The translations under genes were made by a program, and so were the position numbers. From Botryosphaeria dothidea (Eukaryota > Ascomycota > Dothideomycetes > Botryosphaeriales > Botryosphaeriaceae), in contig WWBZ02000011.1 of assembly GCA_011503125.2 (NCBI GenBank), forward strand, positions 1-64,000: 64,000 nt of DNA, written 5' to 3'. Under the pieces are notes generated by a model. That model did no database searches. It saw only the letters and a program-made list of their open reading frames with translations, and was not told the origin of the DNA. This document shows, piece after piece, positions 1 through 8,589 of the stretch (position 1 is the stretch's first letter; each line of letters opens with the position of its first letter).

Positions 1-14
1 GCTTTATCTCGTAG

Positions 15-493
15 TGTTACGGCGCAGCCTCCACAGGTTGAGGAAGTTAGGGATCAGCCCCGCCGGAACAACAGAAGTCGGGGGTCATAAAGATCCGAGG
101 TCACGTGACCTCGCGCTCAACTAGACCCACCGCTCAGATTGCCAAGGCTGCCTGAGCGGGCCCCACCTACTGAGCCATCCTGCTCAATCACAACAGCTCG
201 CTCAGAAGACTACGCGCCATTGAGCGCAACCCGCCTATTGAGCACATAGATTGTATAGAACTCTCCTACGTATATAAACCACGCTCTCTAGATAGCTTTG
301 GACCTTCGTGGTCAACTTCAATAACAATTCAGCACCAATTGTTAGTAACAAGGCCTTCGCACGCAGTGCTCAGTCTTCAGTCGTCTACTCGTTCCTCACG
401 TACCTCTTCTTGTACCCACTCAAGGAAAACCCTCGACAGGTTTCCACCCTCTTTGGTGTTTGGATCCTTAGAGGTAGAGGCCCGCTCGTTACA
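15..493 (+). repeat. 5' LTR of element A
   Basis: 479 bp, TG...CA ends. It differs from the 3' LTR only by three single-base length changes in short runs (about 84, 131 and 300), with no substitutions seen. It contains the promoter elements listed separately and is followed directly by the primer-binding region. Confidence 0.95.
96..277 (+). promoter_or_regulatory. LTR promoter of element A: CACGTG palindrome, GCTCA array, TATA box
   Basis: An 18-bp perfect palindrome with a TCACGTGA core lies at 96-113. Between 115 and 243 the pentamer GCTCA or its complement TGAGC occurs eight times. A TATA box (TATATAAA) starts at 271. The predicted transcript start, about 308, is where the sequence becomes complementary to the primer-binding region. 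CACGTG is the core site of bHLH factors such as the Cbf1/Pho4 type; its use here is an inference. The same block is repeated in the 3' LTR (palindrome at 7631-7648). Confidence 0.6.
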
Positions 494-589: not shown

Positions 590-2419
590 ATGGCACCAGG
601 ATCTCAGATGGACGTCGACCCAACGGAGGGCCGCGCTGAGGGTGCCCCAGGGCGTGCTCCGCCCGCGCTGCAAACAGAGCCTACCAGAGCTGAGCTCTTA
701 CAACTCATCGAGGAGTTGAAAGCTCAGAACGCTCGACTGATCGAGCACACGACAAAGCGGAGCGCTACTAAGGTTAAAGTAGCGGCACCGAGAAGTTCGA
801 TGGGGACAGGAAGAAGCTCCAATCCTTCCTACTCCAGATGCAACGCTACCTCCAGTTTTAACCAAGCACAATTCGACAACGACGCCGAAGAAGTGCTCTT
901 CGCATCAACCTACCTCAGAGGAACGGCAGAAAGCATGGATGGAACCATACCTTCGCGACCACCTAGCCAACGAACACTCTCTCGAGAAGAGACGGGCAAA
1001 GACCAAGGAAATCTTCGACACCTACACGGGATTCGCAGACAACCTTAGGGCCACTTTCAACGATCGGGACGAAGTCCGCAAAGCCTCTAACGATATTATG
1101 ACCGTTAGACAGATGGGATCTGTAGCTGTCTACGCAACCAAGTTTCAGCAGCTTGCAGCCTACCTCGAATGGTCAGACGAGACTTTCCGCGACCTCTTCT
1201 ATAAAGGCCTGAAGGACGAAGTCAAGAAGAACATGATCACTCACGAATACCCACCTACCTTTCAGAAGATGGTAGACCTTGCGTCTCAGATCGACGGTCG
1301 CATGTACGAATGGAAGATGGGTTCTCGACAATCCAACACCTCGAAGCCCCGCCGTGAAAGAACAACCCTCGAAGGCGGAGACGCTATGGCCCTCGACGCG
1401 GCCAACAGACAGGATTCCAAGAAGGGCAACAATGGTCACAACAACAAGAAGCCCAAGGGACCTAACCCGAACTGGACGGATGAGCAGAAACAGCGCTATA
1501 AGGATCGACTCTGCATCACCTGCGGCAGTGACAAACACTTCTCTCCTAAGTGTCCCGCAGAAACCCTCGCAGCAAGAAGGACAACAAGCAGACTTCGAGC
1601 GCTCAGCGTGAAGCGTCGGTTGCATCTCGCCAAGACAACCACGATACGCTACACTGGACAGCCTGTTACGATGACGGCTGTCAGACGCACCAAACCAGCA
1701 AGGATATCTCTGGATGGTACCCCCACGAACCTCGAAACTTCGGTATGATGACCAGGACGAAGAAGTCATCGAAACGACGATATCATCGATAGTTTCCCTC
1801 TAGACGACGAACTTGTCAACAGCGAAACAGGAGAACTATACGAGAGTACTAGTGAAACGCAGTCAGATAATGCACCTATACCATCGGACAAACTAGACAC
1901 CCTCGTCTCGTTAGAAGTTCTCGCTGAAAGATACGGCCTTGGCAACCACCTACGGGACGAATGGGGCAATCTTAGTCAAACAATCTGGATTCCGCATCAG
2001 AAAGGCATCGCGCTTACGGTCATTTGGGGATGGCGTCAGAACACCCTTTGGGAAACCCGAATGAACAAGACGGGAAGAAGTACGAACTTCCGGTGACCAA
2101 AGAAACGACACTCGTCGAACGCCACCACCAAGGAACCTCAGCACGCGAGCAAGCAGACTACGACTCCCTCCGGGAACTAGCACGGATTCTCTGCCAGTAC
2201 GGCACGGCAACGATCCAGCATCGTACACTCCAGTGGATTCCGGACAAGAAGCTCAATCGACCAACCTTTAGATATCAGGTTCGAAAGGACAAAGTCTACT
2301 GGCGAAGGAAGCAGAACTCCGACAAATGGACCAACTGGAAGCAAGCATATCTCCAAGTCAACGAATGGGAAGACTATATGCACAGTGAAGTCTACGGCTA
2401 CCCTATGCCAAAAAACTAG
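590..2419 (+). pseudogene. gag of element A, frameshifted
   Basis: Structural Gag polyprotein. The start at 590 opens an acidic N-terminus, followed by a capsid-like segment (residue patterns such as YLRGTAES and EVRKASNDI) and a CCHC zinc knuckle C-x2-C-x4-H-x4-C at about 1510-1553. The C-terminal spacer is open at 2024-2419. The reading frame is not continuous. A missing base near 789, an extra T in the run 856-859 and an extra A near 935 each move the frame; another shift follows the zinc knuckle near 1553, and at least one more lies between 1740 and 2030. Homology continues across each shift, so these are single-base indels, not separate genes. They may be real decay or homopolymer sequence errors; the neighbouring pol is intact over 4.9 kb. 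Confidence 0.8.
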
Positions 2420-2433
2420 ACGGCCCTACGGCA

Positions 2434-5400
2434 ATGGGACCAACCCAGGGGCCACAGTCTAGGTCCCTTCATATGGTATCGCGCACATCGGAAACGGAAA
2501 CTCTTACCGGACCAAACCTATGGAAACAGTTCAAGACACAAGGAATACTCAACGGAGTACCCACTAGAATCCTGATCGATACAGGATCAAGCGGAAATTT
2601 CATCCACAACGAGCTTGTGCAGAAGATGAATATCCCATACCGCAAGAAACAGGAACCGTATCCCCTCAGTGGATTCGACGGATCCCAGGCAGCCTACGGA
2701 GAAGGCTGGGTAAAGATAGAAACGGAGGAAGCAACCCTCCAGATAGGGAACCATCAAGAACGGATTTCCCTCGACGTCCAACGTATTCCTGGGCACGATA
2801 TCATTCTAGGTATGCCCTGGATCCGGACACAGAAACCTATCTTCGACTTCGGAGAAGGAGACTCCATTATCTTTCGAGAGGAGCTCGAGGACCTCCTACG
2901 AAAACAAGGATTACAGAAGGAGAATGGGTTGTTGGATACCCTTCGAAAGCTCCTATCGACATCAACACGGGAAGTAGCCAGTGTAAGGCCTGAATGTGGC
3001 AACTGTGTAGGCGACTCCGATAGTGGTGTAAGTCAGCACCAGGACTGCGACGCAAGTAGCGAAGCCTCCTCGGTAAAATGCAACCCTATTGCAGGAATAA
3101 GCCCTACTAAGCGAAACGATACCCCCGACTTAAGATACGACTCTAGCCACGATGGCGTGAGGCCCAGTGACGGCAGCATCAACGGCAATGATGGCGTAAG
3201 GCCCAGCGACGGCAGCATCAACGGCAACCTTAAGGAAAGCGTAAAACAGGACCAGGACAGTAGCGTACGAGACGCCGCCTCCTCGGTAAAATGCAGCACC
3301 TCAAGCGGAGTAAGACCAACCGAGTCTAGTATTCCCGACGAACAAGTACAGCATACGTCACGAAGGACTACGAGGAAAAGGCATAAGGCTAAGAGTAAGG
3401 CTTCGCGTAAGCAATTAGCAGCCACTGAACCTCAAGTCGACGTCCAGACAATCTCAGGAGAGGCATTCAAGCGTATGAGACGCCAAGGCCAGCAGGTCTG
3501 CCTCATGTACATCAAACCCTCACAGGCGGTGCAACAGAGAGCACTAGCCAAGGCCGCACGGGAAAGGCTTAAGGATGAGGATAGTCCTACTCCCATTGGA
3601 GGAGACGATCCCGCGAGGATTAGAAGGGGACAACACGGTAGTTTGGAGACATGGAACAATCCATACGGAGAACCTCCAATACCGGAAATGGAAACGGTAC
3701 CCAGCGAGTACTGGGACTTAAAAGCCGTTTGCCAAGAAAGAGGAAAAGGAGATTTGCCGAAGCATCAACCATGGGACCACGAGATTCCACTCAAGCCGGG
3801 CACGAAGCCAGCTTATAAGCCCATCTACTCCTTATCAGCAAAGGAAATGGAGGCTTTAAGGGAATACATCGAGAAGAACCTCGAACGCGGATATATTCGG
3901 CCTTCAACGTCATCAGCCGGATATCCGATCCTTTTCGTCCCAAAGAAGAATGGCAAACTACGCCTCTGTGTCGACTACCGACAACTCAACGACATCACGA
4001 TCAAGAACCGCTATCCGCTCCCACGCATCGACGAGCTCCAGGACAAGTTAGGGAAAGCAAAGTACTTTACGAAGCTGGACCTCCGGGAAGGATATCACCT
4101 GGTTAGGATCAAAGAAGGGGAAGAATGGAAGACAGCCTTCAGAACGAGGCTAGGACTCTACGAGTATACGGTTATGCCATTCGGGCTTACCAACGCGCCA
4201 GCAACTTTCCAAAATCTTGTCAACGATACGCTGCGCGAATACTTGGATATCTTCTGCTTAGCTTACCTCGACGATATCCTCATCTTTTCAGAGACCCTCG
4301 AGGATCATAAGAAGCATGTCAGAAAGGTCCTAGAAGCCCTCCAGGCAAAGAATCTGTCTATCGCACCCGAGAAATGCGAATGGCACGTTCAAAGGACAGA
4401 ATTCTTAGGCTTTGTCATCACCCCAGGTCACGTCGGTATGGACGACTCGAAACTGGATTCCATTAGAGAATGGCCAGTACCCAAGACGATCAAGGAAGTT
4501 CAGTCTTTCCTTGGATTCGCGAACTTCTACCGAAAGTTCATTTGGAACTACTCAAAGGTCACGGAACCTTTAACGCGACTCACTCGAAAGGAGCATGGCT
4601 TCAAATGGGGAGACGATCAGCAGCAAGCCTTCGAATCGCTTAAACGCATGTTTTGCGAAGCACCGGTTCTAGGGATATATGATCCCGACAAACCTATCGA
4701 AGTAGAAACTGATGCGTCAGGATTCGCCCTCGGAGCATGTCTCAGCCAGCCTGACGATCAAGGTCGATGGCACCCAATCGCGTTTTACTCTAGGAAGTTC
4801 ACACCGGCAGAGCTCAACTACGATACTCACGACAAGGAGCTCTTAGCTATCGTCTCAGCATTCAAGCAATGGAGACACTATCTTGAAGGAGCCAGCTACC
4901 AGGTGGTAGTGCACTGCGATCATCAAAACCTCACGCGCTTCACCACGACTAAGGAGCTGAACCGACGACAGGTTCGCTGGTCTGAAGAAATGGCCTCCTA
5001 CGATTTTAAGATTACACATAGAAAAGGTGTAGATAACGCCGCCGCTGACGCACTCAGCAGAAGGGTAGACTACATGGAAGGACGAATCGAGCCGCACCCT
5101 GCAGTGTTCGCAGTGGATAGCGATGGATCGCTCACCCTTGCCAGACCGTCTTTCCCAATGCTTCGCATCGAGTCAAACCCATGGCATCTGAAGATCCGAG
5201 AAGCATACGCACAGGACTCCTTCGCGCAGGAACTTTTAGCGCTTGAGGACGACCCGCGTATTGCTCGAGATAGGGAAGGAACGCTTCTCTTCAAAGGATT
5301 AATCTATGTCCCGGCAAGACTGCGAGAAGTACTAGTCAAGGATATACACGAAGCACCCGCGCATGGACATCAGGGCATCGACAGGACAACCGAAAGGATC

Positions 5401-7350
5401 ACACGAAACTTCTACTTTCCAGGGTTACGGAAGACAGTCCAGCGCATAGTCTCGCAATGTGACCTTTGCATTAGAAGCAAAGCCGCGACACACGCTCCGT
5501 ACGGACAACTACAACCCCTAGAAGTTCCAGAACGACCATGGCAATCGGTTACGCTAGACTTTATTACGAAGCTGCCACAGTCTAGAGACTCGCTTACCGG
5601 AGTTAAGCACGACTCGATCCTAGTCTTTGTCGACAGACTCACGAAGTACGCTTACTTCTTGCCCTACCTCGAGGCATCGAATGCAGAGCAGCTAGCTCAT
5701 ACGTTCCTCCGATACATCTTCGCGGATTACGGAATGCCGGAAGAACTGGTTTCGGACAGAGATAAGCTAATGCGTTCTGAATTCTGGCAAACGCTCATGC
5801 GTCAACTTGGGGCTAAGAACAAACTCTCTACAACCGCACACCCGCAAACGGACGGTCAGACAGAACGGATGAACCGGACTCTCGAACAATATCTCCGCTG
5901 TTTCGTCAACTACCCACAGGACGATTGGGCCACATGGCTACCTATGGCACAGTTCGCCTACAACAGCGCCAAACAAGAGTCAACCAACGTATCCCCGTTC
6001 TTTGCCAACTATGGATTCGAACCAGACGCGTATAGAGAAGCCATCCCAAGTCGAAAATTGGCCCAACAAGGTGTTCTTAAAGCCGAGCAGCTAAAAGAAC
6101 TACACAAAGCCATCAGTCTCGACCTCGAGCACGTACGAATCATGATGTCCAAGTACTACAACAGACGGCACCAGGCGGCACCGAACCTAAAGAGGGGGGA
6201 TAAAGTATACCTCCTCACAAAAAACATCAAATCGAAGCGACCAAGCGACAAATTGGATTTCAAGAAAACCGGTCCATTCGAAATTTCAGAAAAACTTGGA
6301 AACGTTACGTATCGACTCAAATTGCCAGCAACGACACGAATGAATTCCACCTTTCACGTGGCATTGCTCGAGCCAGCACCAGAAAACGCCACAATCCCAG
6401 AAACTCCAGAAGAGATAATCCCAGAAAACCCAGATGCCGAAGAAGACGAATACCCAGTCGAGAAAATCTTAGACTGCAAAAGATTCGGACATCAGCTCAA
6501 ATATCTTGTCAAATGGGAAGGATACGGAAATGAGGATAACCAATGGGTACCCAAGGACGACATACATCCAGATCTCGTCACAGAATTCCACCGTCAAAAT
6601 CCCGACCTCCCACGGAAACGAGGTCGTCCCCGAACGAGAACGGCGAGAGACCCTCAAGATAGGGGGATAAACGGGCAGAATTCACAGGCTCAGGAGAGCA
6701 CGGAGATTTCGCACCAGCCACAGGCTCGCCGGCAGACTCGGCAGACTCAGCCACATGCGGCGCAGCAAGACCCACCGTCTCGTGACGTGGCCGTTTTGAC
6801 GCGGACGGACCCTCAGAATTCTCAGGGTCAGGAGCGTACCCCTCATCCTCGGCCAGCGCAGCCAGCAACTCCTCCGCTTCCCGACGATCATGCTCATCCA
6901 ACGCGGCCAAACTACCAGACTCAGCAAGAAGAGCCTTGTAACCACGCTCCTCCAACAAACGCTGGTTGGCCCGCAACCGTTTCAAACGAGCAGCAACAGT
7001 CCCTAGCTCTTTCTCCTGGCATCGCAGGACCTCCTCATGACGACGATGCATCTCCTCTTGCTCCCGCCGTAAGCGCACTCGCTCTTCCTCCTGAACAGCA
7101 CGGAGCCTATCAAGATCAGCCAGAGAAGCCAGAAACTTCTCTTGAGCCTCGGCCTCCTTGGCCTTTAACTTCTCCTGCTCGCGGCGAAGACTTAAGGCTA
7201 GAAAACGTGAGCAAGCATCCCGGACAGAAGAAAAGACCACCTACCTCCAGAAAGCGACATCTTCTTCGCATCACACATCGTAGTACCCTTCGCAATACAA
7301 GCACCACAACGATCGTGTTCCGGAGCAACCTTACACGGCCTACCGTTTAG
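2434..7350 (+). CDS. Pol polyprotein of Ty3 chromovirus A
   Basis: Intact 1638-residue frame starting 14 bp after the gag spacer stop. Domains in order: aspartic protease (LIDTGSSGNFI, residue about 50); reverse transcriptase with YLDD (nt about 4265-4276); RNase H (TDASGFALGA); integrase with an HHCC zinc finger (H-x3-H...C-x2-C, about 5350-5470) and a D,D35E core (LDFITKLP, SDRDKL, and the Glu of QTDGQTERMNR); and a C-terminal chromodomain (YLVKWEGY, about 6440-6600), which reads histone marks to guide integration in related elements. The last 250 residues after the chromodomain are low complexity. This tail lies opposite the antisense gene, so it may be open only because that strand is coding. 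All catalytic residues are present, so the enzyme set looks functional. Confidence 0.95.
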   Translation: MGPTQGPQSRSLHMVSRTSETETLTGPNLWKQFKTQGILNGVPTRILIDTGSSGNFIHNELVQKMNIPYRKKQEPYPLSGFDGSQAAYGEGWVKIETEEATLQIGNHQERISLDVQRIPGHDIILGMPWIRTQKPIFDFGEGDSIIFREELEDLLRKQGLQKENGLLDTLRKLLSTSTREVASVRPECGNCVGDSDSGVSQHQDCDASSEASSVKCNPIAGISPTKRNDTPDLRYDSSHDGVRPSDGSINGNDGVRPSDGSINGNLKESVKQDQDSSVRDAASSVKCSTSSGVRPTESSIPDEQVQHTSRRTTRKRHKAKSKASRKQLAATEPQVDVQTISGEAFKRMRRQGQQVCLMYIKPSQAVQQRALAKAARERLKDEDSPTPIGGDDPARIRRGQHGSLETWNNPYGEPPIPEMETVPSEYWDLKAVCQERGKGDLPKHQPWDHEIPLKPGTKPAYKPIYSLSAKEMEALREYIEKNLERGYIRPSTSSAGYPILFVPKKNGKLRLCVDYRQLNDITIKNRYPLPRIDELQDKLGKAKYFTKLDLREGYHLVRIKEGEEWKTAFRTRLGLYEYTVMPFGLTNAPATFQNLVNDTLREYLDIFCLAYLDDILIFSETLEDHKKHVRKVLEALQAKNLSIAPEKCEWHVQRTEFLGFVITPGHVGMDDSKLDSIREWPVPKTIKEVQSFLGFANFYRKFIWNYSKVTEPLTRLTRKEHGFKWGDDQQQAFESLKRMFCEAPVLGIYDPDKPIEVETDASGFALGACLSQPDDQGRWHPIAFYSRKFTPAELNYDTHDKELLAIVSAFKQWRHYLEGASYQVVVHCDHQNLTRFTTTKELNRRQVRWSEEMASYDFKITHRKGVDNAAADALSRRVDYMEGRIEPHPAVFAVDSDGSLTLARPSFPMLRIESNPWHLKIREAYAQDSFAQELLALEDDPRIARDREGTLLFKGLIYVPARLREVLVKDIHEAPAHGHQGIDRTTERITRNFYFPGLRKTVQRIVSQCDLCIRSKAATHAPYGQLQPLEVPERPWQSVTLDFITKLPQSRDSLTGVKHDSILVFVDRLTKYAYFLPYLEASNAEQLAHTFLRYIFADYGMPEELVSDRDKLMRSEFWQTLMRQLGAKNKLSTTAHPQTDGQTERMNRTLEQYLRCFVNYPQDDWATWLPMAQFAYNSAKQESTNVSPFFANYGFEPDAYREAIPSRKLAQQGVLKAEQLKELHKAISLDLEHVRIMMSKYYNRRHQAAPNLKRGDKVYLLTKNIKSKRPSDKLDFKKTGPFEISEKLGNVTYRLKLPATTRMNSTFHVALLEPAPENATIPETPEEIIPENPDAEEDEYPVEKILDCKRFGHQLKYLVKWEGYGNEDNQWVPKDDIHPDLVTEFHRQNPDLPRKRGRPRTRTARDPQDRGINGQNSQAQESTEISHQPQARRQTRQTQPHAAQQDPPSRDVAVLTRTDPQNSQGQERTPHPRPAQPATPPLPDDHAHPTRPNYQTQQEEPCNHAPPTNAGWPATVSNEQQQSLALSPGIAGPPHDDDASPLAPAVSALALPPEQHGAYQDQPEKPETSLEPRPPWPLTSPARGEDLRLENVSKHPGQKKRPPTSRKRHLLRITHRSTLRNTSTTTIVFRSNLTRPTV

Positions 7351-7452
7351 TTCACAATCAAAGCAGGGACGAATCGCGGGAAAGGAAATAGACTCCACGA
7401 GGGCCGCCAAACGACGTCGTTCCTCCGTAGTATCCCGCTTACGTTTAGACAT
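6578..7452 (-). CDS. Antisense gene in element A: Zn2Cys6-like cluster plus coiled coil
   Basis: Spliced gene on the strand opposite pol. Exon 1 is 7452-7245 and exon 2 is 7197-6578. The 47-bp intron 7244-7198 begins GTAGGT, has a GCTCAC branch-like site and ends TTCTAG; splicing joins the frames exactly and gives 275 residues. The N-terminus is basic (MSKRKRD). Cysteines at 30, 33, 40, 49, 52 and 60 are spaced C-x2-C-x6-C-x8-C-x2-C-x7-C, which fits the fungal Zn(II)2Cys6 cluster consensus although the usual Arg/Lys run between Cys 2 and 3 is weak. Exon 2 is a Glu/Arg-rich coiled coil of about 100 residues followed by an acidic tail. The same Cys spacing survives on the antisense strand of element C. 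The family resembles lineage-specific fungal proteins of unknown role; DNA or RNA binding is inference. Splicing is unproven. Confidence 0.7.
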
Positions 7453-7536
7453 GATGGACTTACGGAGAGAAAGTAAGCCAGGAAGAACCCACAAGGAAAT
7501 AGGCAATACGGAAGAATCTTCGGGCCGAAGATCCTT

Positions 7537-7550
7537 AAGGGGGGGGATAG
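7537..7550 (+). other. Polypurine tract of element A
   Basis: AAGG followed by a run of G and GATAG directly before the 3' LTR. This is the usual primer site for plus-strand DNA synthesis. Confidence 0.8.
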
Positions 7551-8028
7551 TGTTACGGCGCAGCCTCCACAGGTTGAGGAAGTTAGGGATCAGCCCCGCC
7601 GGAACAACAGAAGTCGGGGTCATAAAGATCCGAGGTCACGTGACCTCGCGCTCAACTAGACCCACCCGCTCAGATTGCCAAGGCTGCCTGAGCGGGCCCC
7701 ACCTACTGAGCCATCCTGCTCAATCACAACAGCTCGCTCAGAAGACTACGCGCCATTGAGCGCAACCCGCCTATTGAGCACATAGATTGTATAGAACTCT
7801 CCTACGTATATAAACCACGCTCTCTAGATAGCTTTGACCTTCGTGGTCAACTTCAATAACAATTCAGCACCAATTGTTAGTAACAAGGCCTTCGCACGCA
7901 GTGCTCAGTCTTCAGTCGTCTACTCGTTCCTCACGTACCTCTTCTTGTACCCACTCAAGGAAAACCCTCGACAGGTTTCCACCCTCTTTGGTGTTTGGAT
8001 CCTTAGAGGTAGAGGCCCGCTCGTTACA
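7551..8028 (+). repeat. 3' LTR of element A
   Basis: 478 bp copy of the 5' LTR, followed by the target duplication GTAG at 8029. Read on the minus strand, this LTR lies upstream of the antisense gene, whose start codon is 99 bp away, so it could supply that gene's promoter (inference). Confidence 0.95.
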
Positions 8029-8589
8029 GTAGCTAGACGGCTATCTCCTCGGCTATATAAATAAGGGCTTCTCTTTAGAAGTACTATTAGTTATCTTAGT
8101 AGAATCGGGAACTAAGCTTTCCGTTATCTATTTAGTATTACTACGTAGAAAGATTTATTCTTAGCGCTAGTATCTAGGTAATTATAGGCGTTAGGCTAGG
8201 TTTTACGCGTCTTATATCTCCGTATTAGCTTAGATATTCTATAATTCGCGAGAGTATAGCTTAGTTCTACTATTATTCGGTACTTTCTATCTCGCTAGAT
8301 TCTAGAATACTATTATAGAGCTCGCCCGTATTACTATTAACTAGCTCGTCGTTATACGGAAGATTATCGATTAGGTCGTCGATTTCTAATACTTTCTCGT
8401 TACGAGTCGCTAGGTTTAGTTATCGGGGCTTAGAAGGATACTATCCGGTAGCGTTCTTATTACTCTTATAGATTTAGTAGCTATCGTTAAAGTAGATAGT
8501 CTAGCTAAGTACTACGTAATTAACTTCTCTACTTATTATAGACGTCGAGCGAGGCTCTTCTTCGTCTTACGCGGTTATTTCGGCGGCCG

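Follow-up and report, generated by a model that had tools for sequence, protein, structure and literature searches.

In lambdoid phages, the regulator and operators of the immunity region are exchanged as a cassette; human T-cell leukemia virus type 1 (HTLV-1) expresses HBZ, an antisense coiled-coil regulator, from its 3' long terminal repeat (LTR); and foamy viruses encode Tas, a DNA-binding activator of their own LTR. The proteins and hosts of these systems are unrelated to those considered here, namely an antisense gene within a young Ty3 chromovirus of the plant-canker fungus Botryosphaeria dothidea, which lies at the start of a 64,000-nucleotide stretch (hereafter the window; assembly GCA_011503125.2, contig WWBZ02000011.1, positions 1 to 64,000). 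An extra antisense gene, brtn, is carried by Boty of Botrytis cinerea, and Zhao et al. 2011 is said to be its source paper. In the parts of PMC8365987 and PMC4227169 that concern Boty, brtn is an antisense gene of unknown function in a fungal Ty3 chromovirus, as is the gene's setting here; the likeness is one of description, those parts mention neither a zinc cluster nor a U3 array, and no Botrytis protein is among the antisense-protein homologues listed in our three lists (7, 4, and 13).

Other described systems share single aspects of this locus. According to the portion of PMC5735166 available to us, VANC of the Arabidopsis VANDAL elements is encoded by the element and acts on its own short motif arrays, with motif and protein diverging together, a pairing that we predict for the present element. 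However, VANDAL elements are DNA transposons with unrelated domains and demonstrated anti-silencing, whereas the present system is an LTR element with a predicted Zn2Cys6-like protein and a U3-restricted array. In the Tnt1 superfamily, as presented in an excerpt of PMC1838419, subfamilies differ in their U3 and share a conserved coding part; an accessory gene is unmentioned there but present here. The review PMC7264820, in the sections consulted, mentions an HTLV antisense promoter and lists the function of LTR-retrotransposon antisense genes as unknown, and our search of the open literature found no report of an LTR retrotransposon with a regulator-operator cassette.

Here, we describe a constrained antisense frame with a recurring cysteine pattern, arrays of half-sites in the U3, and a mosaic in which gene and array vary together on a near-constant pol and R-U5 backbone. 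These features suggest that the antisense gene probably encodes a zinc-cluster-like coiled-coil regulator that binds its own U3 array, most likely activating the LTRs, and is co-inherited with that array as a cassette.

The antisense gene and its protein

A preliminary description of the window had placed a two-exon frame of 275 codons with a 47-bp intron opposite the non-conserved tail of pol, and re-reading the minus strand from 7452 to 6578 recovered the same gene (Table 1). The pol open reading frame (ORF) stays open to 7350, and its last recognised domain, the chromodomain, ends near residue 1387 (about 6594). Because many copies carry changes in the direction of repeat-induced point mutation (RIP; C to T, G to A), the ratio of non-synonymous to synonymous change (omega) was computed from transversions only. 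For the N-terminal part of the gene, comparison of the window's class A with class B gave 15 synonymous and 10 non-synonymous transversions (omega 0.14, p=2.7e-6), and comparison with class C gave 23 and 39 (omega 0.36, p=2e-4; exon 1 by itself, p=0.064), where all p-values assume independent sites and rest on five copies of B and C. In the overlap at 6836-7195, where antisense third positions are pol second positions, omega was 0.31 in the antisense frame versus 1.72 in the pol frame, while the pol core gave 0.21 against two other pol lineages. These values indicate purifying selection on the antisense frame but none on the overlapping pol-tail frame. The preliminary description had named an absent antisense transcript or splice junction, together with a frame that is unconserved or explained by pol, as grounds for dropping the proposal; since the antisense frame is constrained and the pol tail is not, this combination does not apply. 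It is accordingly highly improbable that the frame is a by-product of pol or of chance that makes no protein: although pol is open over most of it, this reading conflicts with the contrast in omega, with the retention of the cysteine pattern where the DNA is unalignable, and with the presence of gene models in two genera.

The candidate intron keeps GT..AG in the five copies that were set against the window, and its length is 47 nt in class A, 46 nt in B, and 49 nt in C. The gene models P0001 (B. dothidea) and P0003 and P0006 (Macrophomina phaseolina) run uninterrupted over the same candidate junction; these are predicted models that start within exon 1, and those of Macrophomina were compared as protein. 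Two B. dothidea database proteins are identical to parts of these antisense genes. In a further B. dothidea gene model, P0002 (SLS57_006002), the C-terminal part of the antisense protein follows an N-terminal part that is NAD-binding and NmrA-like; this model is either a fusion or an annotation error. Directly upstream of the antisense ATG lies a donor-like GTAAGT (window 7453-7470, minus strand; also in the copies L031 and L038), which is present in classes A, D, and F and absent in G1; it perhaps marks an intron in the leader, or a splice variant that omits the cluster exon.

The spacing of six cysteines given in the preliminary description was confirmed, with the cysteines at residues 30, 33, 40, 49, 52, and 60. 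The Zn(II)2Cys6 spacing C-x2-C-x6-C-x(5-12)-C-x2-C-x(6-8)-C was found in the window protein, in the copy L044 (x6/x8/x6), and in the homologue P0020, but not in class F (second gap 16) or in L055 (third gap 15). The cysteine pattern also occurs in classes whose DNA is unalignable with that of the window. AlphaFold models of the cluster place a predicted helix behind each CxxC pair, a feature of Zn2Cys6 domains, but their fold match to such domains is weak, and in P0020 a long helix is predicted that matches the coiled-coil-like region. A six-cysteine cluster followed by a coiled coil is likewise the arrangement of the fungal Zn2Cys6 factors Gal4, HAP1, Leu3, and Pho7; the present system differs from these in that its half-sites are not CGG triplets and its gene lies inside a retrotransposon.

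Half-site arrays in the U3

In the U3 of the 3' LTR, GCTCA occurs at 7650, 7668, 7718, and 7736, and TGAGC, its reverse, at 7689, 7707, 7757, and 7775, which amounts to the plan >> << >> << with spacings of 18-21-18, 11, and 18-21-18. The array lies between CACGTG (7637) and TATATAA (7807), upstream of the TATA box. In the 5' LTR, the same words stand at 115, 132, 182, and 200 (GCTCA) and at 153, 171, 221, and 239 (TGAGC), the first spacing being 17 instead of 18. Other classes carry other words and spacings: GTTCA 8-19-8 in D, TGATC 9-22-9 in G1, TGCTC 9-32-9 in G2, TGATC 9-31-9 in G3, and CAGTT 18-14-18 in C.

A search in which every 5-letter word was tested for the plan recovered it in seven of the 15 U3 sequences, each with 7 or 8 of the eight sites exact (A, two C copies, D, G1, G2, and G3), and one B copy had four of the eight. 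With one mismatch per site allowed, the class B copy L014 showed eight positions in an A-like order. None of 600 shuffles of the A, C, D, G1, G2, and G3 U3 sequences contained the plan, and of 449 control windows two scored 4 and the rest nothing. Repeated words in other arrangements were present in E1, X, H, and F. The class words are almost restricted to their own class, with the exception of GCTCA, which is common to A, B, and C. Word repetition as such is a weaker sign: a 6-mer occurs at least five times in 37 of 1645 GC-matched windows, and in 241 of 2226 windows from the RIP-mutated remainder of the window. A third array type was observed in the U3 of L012 (5951-6235), where TGCCCTTAA occurs three times with a period of 28 bp.

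Joint variation of gene and U3 on a common backbone

The genome searched comprises 51.7 Mb in 78 contigs. In a DNA search with the antisense gene, in which 40 of 62 candidates were scored, 20 of 41 matches to the gene DNA, the window among these 20, were about 100% identical, the others ranging down to 72%; a search with the antisense protein gave 112 exon-wise matches. For comparison, 42 further loci were taken by position (one of them, L043, a 101-base remnant), together with eight from the DNA search. Copies with window-type pol differ by 2 to 9 transversions per 1,644 to 2,561 bases, or 0.08-0.43% (16 tabulated copies; L034, with 91 aligned bases, was omitted), and R-U5 is alignable in every one of those tabulated. 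On this backbone, the gene of classes B and C shows 29-57 transversions relative to class A over about 600 bases, and classes D, E1, E2, G1, G2, and G3 show no DNA alignment to the window in the cassette block. The exchanged block consists of the half encoding the cluster and coiled coil, the leader, and the U3, while the gene's C-terminal part is common to A to E; in the G classes, the alignable part stops already near 6640.

More distant relatives follow the same division. In L053 and L055, whose pol protein is about 56-67% identical to that of the window, the C-terminus of the antisense protein is common (judged by eye) and the N-terminal half is not, and the likeness of P0009 to the F protein is limited to the C-terminal part. 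Moreover, similarity of the cluster domain does not track pol: A and G1 share 25% in the cluster and 94% in pol (RIP included), versus 35% and 66% for A and F. When each copy was assigned to its best-matching gene class and its best-matching U3 class, the two agreed in 43 of 46 copies, and in 34 of 37 without the nine class-defining copies. What characterises a regulator-operator cassette, types that are co-inherited on a common backbone, was therefore found in these 43 copies, with three exceptions.

RIP-direction changes dominate the older copies, and in L036, L041, and L042 they turned 5, 6, and 6 of the six cluster cysteines into tyrosine. In L037, a 99.9% copy, 1-bp indels in the gene and intron produce a single ORF of 360 residues over both exons, and an old A copy (L024, 3122-8764) holds an insertion of about 5.6 kb within the antisense gene.

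Proposed mechanism and alternative explanations

The preliminary description had suggested that the retrotransposon encodes a regulatory or nucleic-acid-binding protein of its own, possibly by reverse-direction transcription out of the 3' LTR. The constraint on the antisense frame, the recurring cysteine pattern, and half-site arrays that accompany the gene from class to class all point that way, and the predicted cluster models, with a helix after each CxxC pair and a weak resemblance to Zn2Cys6 domains, count towards it. Because the symmetric plan of eight half-sites lies upstream of the TATA box and is exchanged with the adjoining cluster-plus-coiled-coil gene, we propose a dimeric regulator and its operator. 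An antisense transcript that begins in or near the 3' LTR would yield the regulator, which would dimerise through its helix, with dimers or tetramers contacting the opposed half-site pairs (>> <<, twice); from its place on the 5' LTR, ahead of the TATA box, the regulator would raise gag-pol transcription. Two template switches in the course of reverse transcription, one in R (strand transfer) and one in the antisense gene where its 3' part is conserved, may create new cassette combinations. If the protein does bind the array, activation would be the favoured outcome, repression or copy-number control a considerably less expected one, and anti-silencing a rather unlikely one.

Several results weigh against the proposed regulator and operator. 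A Pfam profile search found no family above its cut-off for the antisense proteins, and for PF00172 (Zn_clus), with a curated cut-off of 21 bits, exon 1 of the window scored 10.9 bits and L044 10.0 bits, a further difference from Gal4, HAP1, Leu3, and Pho7. In the 5-letter word search, the exact plan was absent from the U3 of B (L014), E1, E2, X, H, F, and L053. Three copies are discordant, namely both L012 elements and L034; two of these combine an E1 gene with an A-type U3, and in one an A gene stands beside a U3 that is of a third type in its distal part. Defining E1 by the two copies with an E1 gene and an A-type U3 would make L035 the exception instead. Furthermore, 43 of 46 overstates independence, as many copies descend from few insertions.

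The three discordant copies speak for a reading in which gene and U3 co-vary only as neighbours in one recombination block, with the arrays binding host factors and the protein acting elsewhere, for example in nuclear import of the pre-integration complex. The excerpt of PMC1838419 likewise shows the Tnt1 U3 diversified on a conserved coding backbone with no mention of an accessory gene, and nuclear roles have been proposed for plant antisense ORFs in the sections of PMC7264820 cited above. We nevertheless regard simple adjacency as doubtful, as it leaves unexplained why the Cys6-coiled-coil half is exchanged while the C-terminus is common, and why one >> << >> << plan recurs with different words in six classes. 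Among readings in which the protein does act on the array, it could be a repressor for copy-number control that shuts off elements with a matching array, so that cassette exchange founds escaping groups as in lambdoid phage immunity. The cassette architecture, the class-specific arrays, and the turnover of cassettes on one backbone are all compatible with this, as is the recent spread of one class implied by about 20 near-identical A copies, and a self-encoded copy-number control factor is known from Ty1 (PMC7055915, in the part consulted). We consider a repressor unlikely, although the two points that favour an activator are not decisive: the array lies upstream of the TATA box and does not cover it, and the C-terminus (residues 206-275, net charge -6) is acidic with aromatic residues. 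A VANC-like anti-silencing protein, which would bind its own motif arrays and remove or block heterochromatin or DNA methylation, with co-change of motif and protein limiting damage to the host, seems less likely still. VANC motifs are short, often tandem, and vary between related elements along with the protein (PMC5735166, same portion), and a fungus that mutates its repeats by RIP makes silencing pressure plausible; VANC, however, belongs to another protein family in plant DNA transposons, and the arrays here are restricted to the U3 as far as examined.

Returning to the proposed cassette of regulator and operator, it could tentatively be seen as a switch resembling an immunity region, in which cassette exchange founds mutually blind regulatory groups, a worn backbone restarts with a new specificity, and silenced or self-limited groups die out.

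Structure of the element

The element at the start of the window has the reverse transcriptase (RT), RNase H, integrase, and C-terminal chromodomain of a Ty3 chromovirus, LTRs that end in TG..CA, and a target-site duplication of GTAG on both sides. Its two LTRs are 99.4% identical over 483 aligned columns. The division of gag into two frames reflects either a frameshift of this copy or a programmed frameshift. A 38-bp direct repeat (95%) occupies 3151-3227, in the spacer that separates protease from RT, and the rest of the window (8101-64000) contains many nested, RIP-mutated repeats.

Table 1. Coordinates of the element's features in the window.
Feature	Position	Strand	Basis
Target-site duplication GTAG	11..14; second copy 8029-8032		read from sequence
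5' LTR	15..493	+	self-match with 7551-8028
Operator-like array, 5' LTR U3	115..243		word positions
gag region, two overlapping frames (590-1048 and 939-1748)	590..1748	+	ORF reading
pol: protease, RT, RNase H, integrase, chromodomain	2434..6594	+	ORFs, domain search
Antisense gene, 275 codons, two exons	6578..7452	-	ORF reading, splice-joined translation
Exon 2, ends in TGA	6578..7197	-	joined translation
Exon 2: KRPR stretch, acidic/aromatic C-terminus	about 6581-6838	-	sequence
Exon 2: Glu/Arg/Leu-rich coiled-coil-like stretch	about 6911-7189	-	sequence
Candidate intron, 47 nt, GTAGGT...TTTTCTAG	7198..7244	-	sequence; length and ends compared across classes
Exon 1: basic KRKR start and Cys6 cluster; ATG 7452-7450	7245..7452	-	joined translation
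Cys6 cluster, residues 30-60, C-x2-C-x6-C-x8-C-x2-C-x7-C	7273..7365	-	sequence, AlphaFold model
Exchangeable cassette: N-terminal half of antisense gene, leader, U3	6834..7782		class alignments
3' LTR	7551..8028	+	self-match with 15-493
CACGTG palindrome (E-box) in U3	7637..7642		sequence
Operator-like array, 3' LTR U3	7650..7779		word positions
TATATAA, probable LTR TATA box	7807..7813	+	sequence

Implications

The copies form a natural cassette series, in which differing predicted DNA-binding domains stand beside matching changes in the promoter arrays, so that the question can be reduced to a matrix of binding and reporter assays. If the proposed reading is true, fungal Ty3 elements would be self-governed by their own transcription factor, recombination would swap regulator and operator as one unit, and new DNA-binding specificities of the zinc-cluster type would be open to study.
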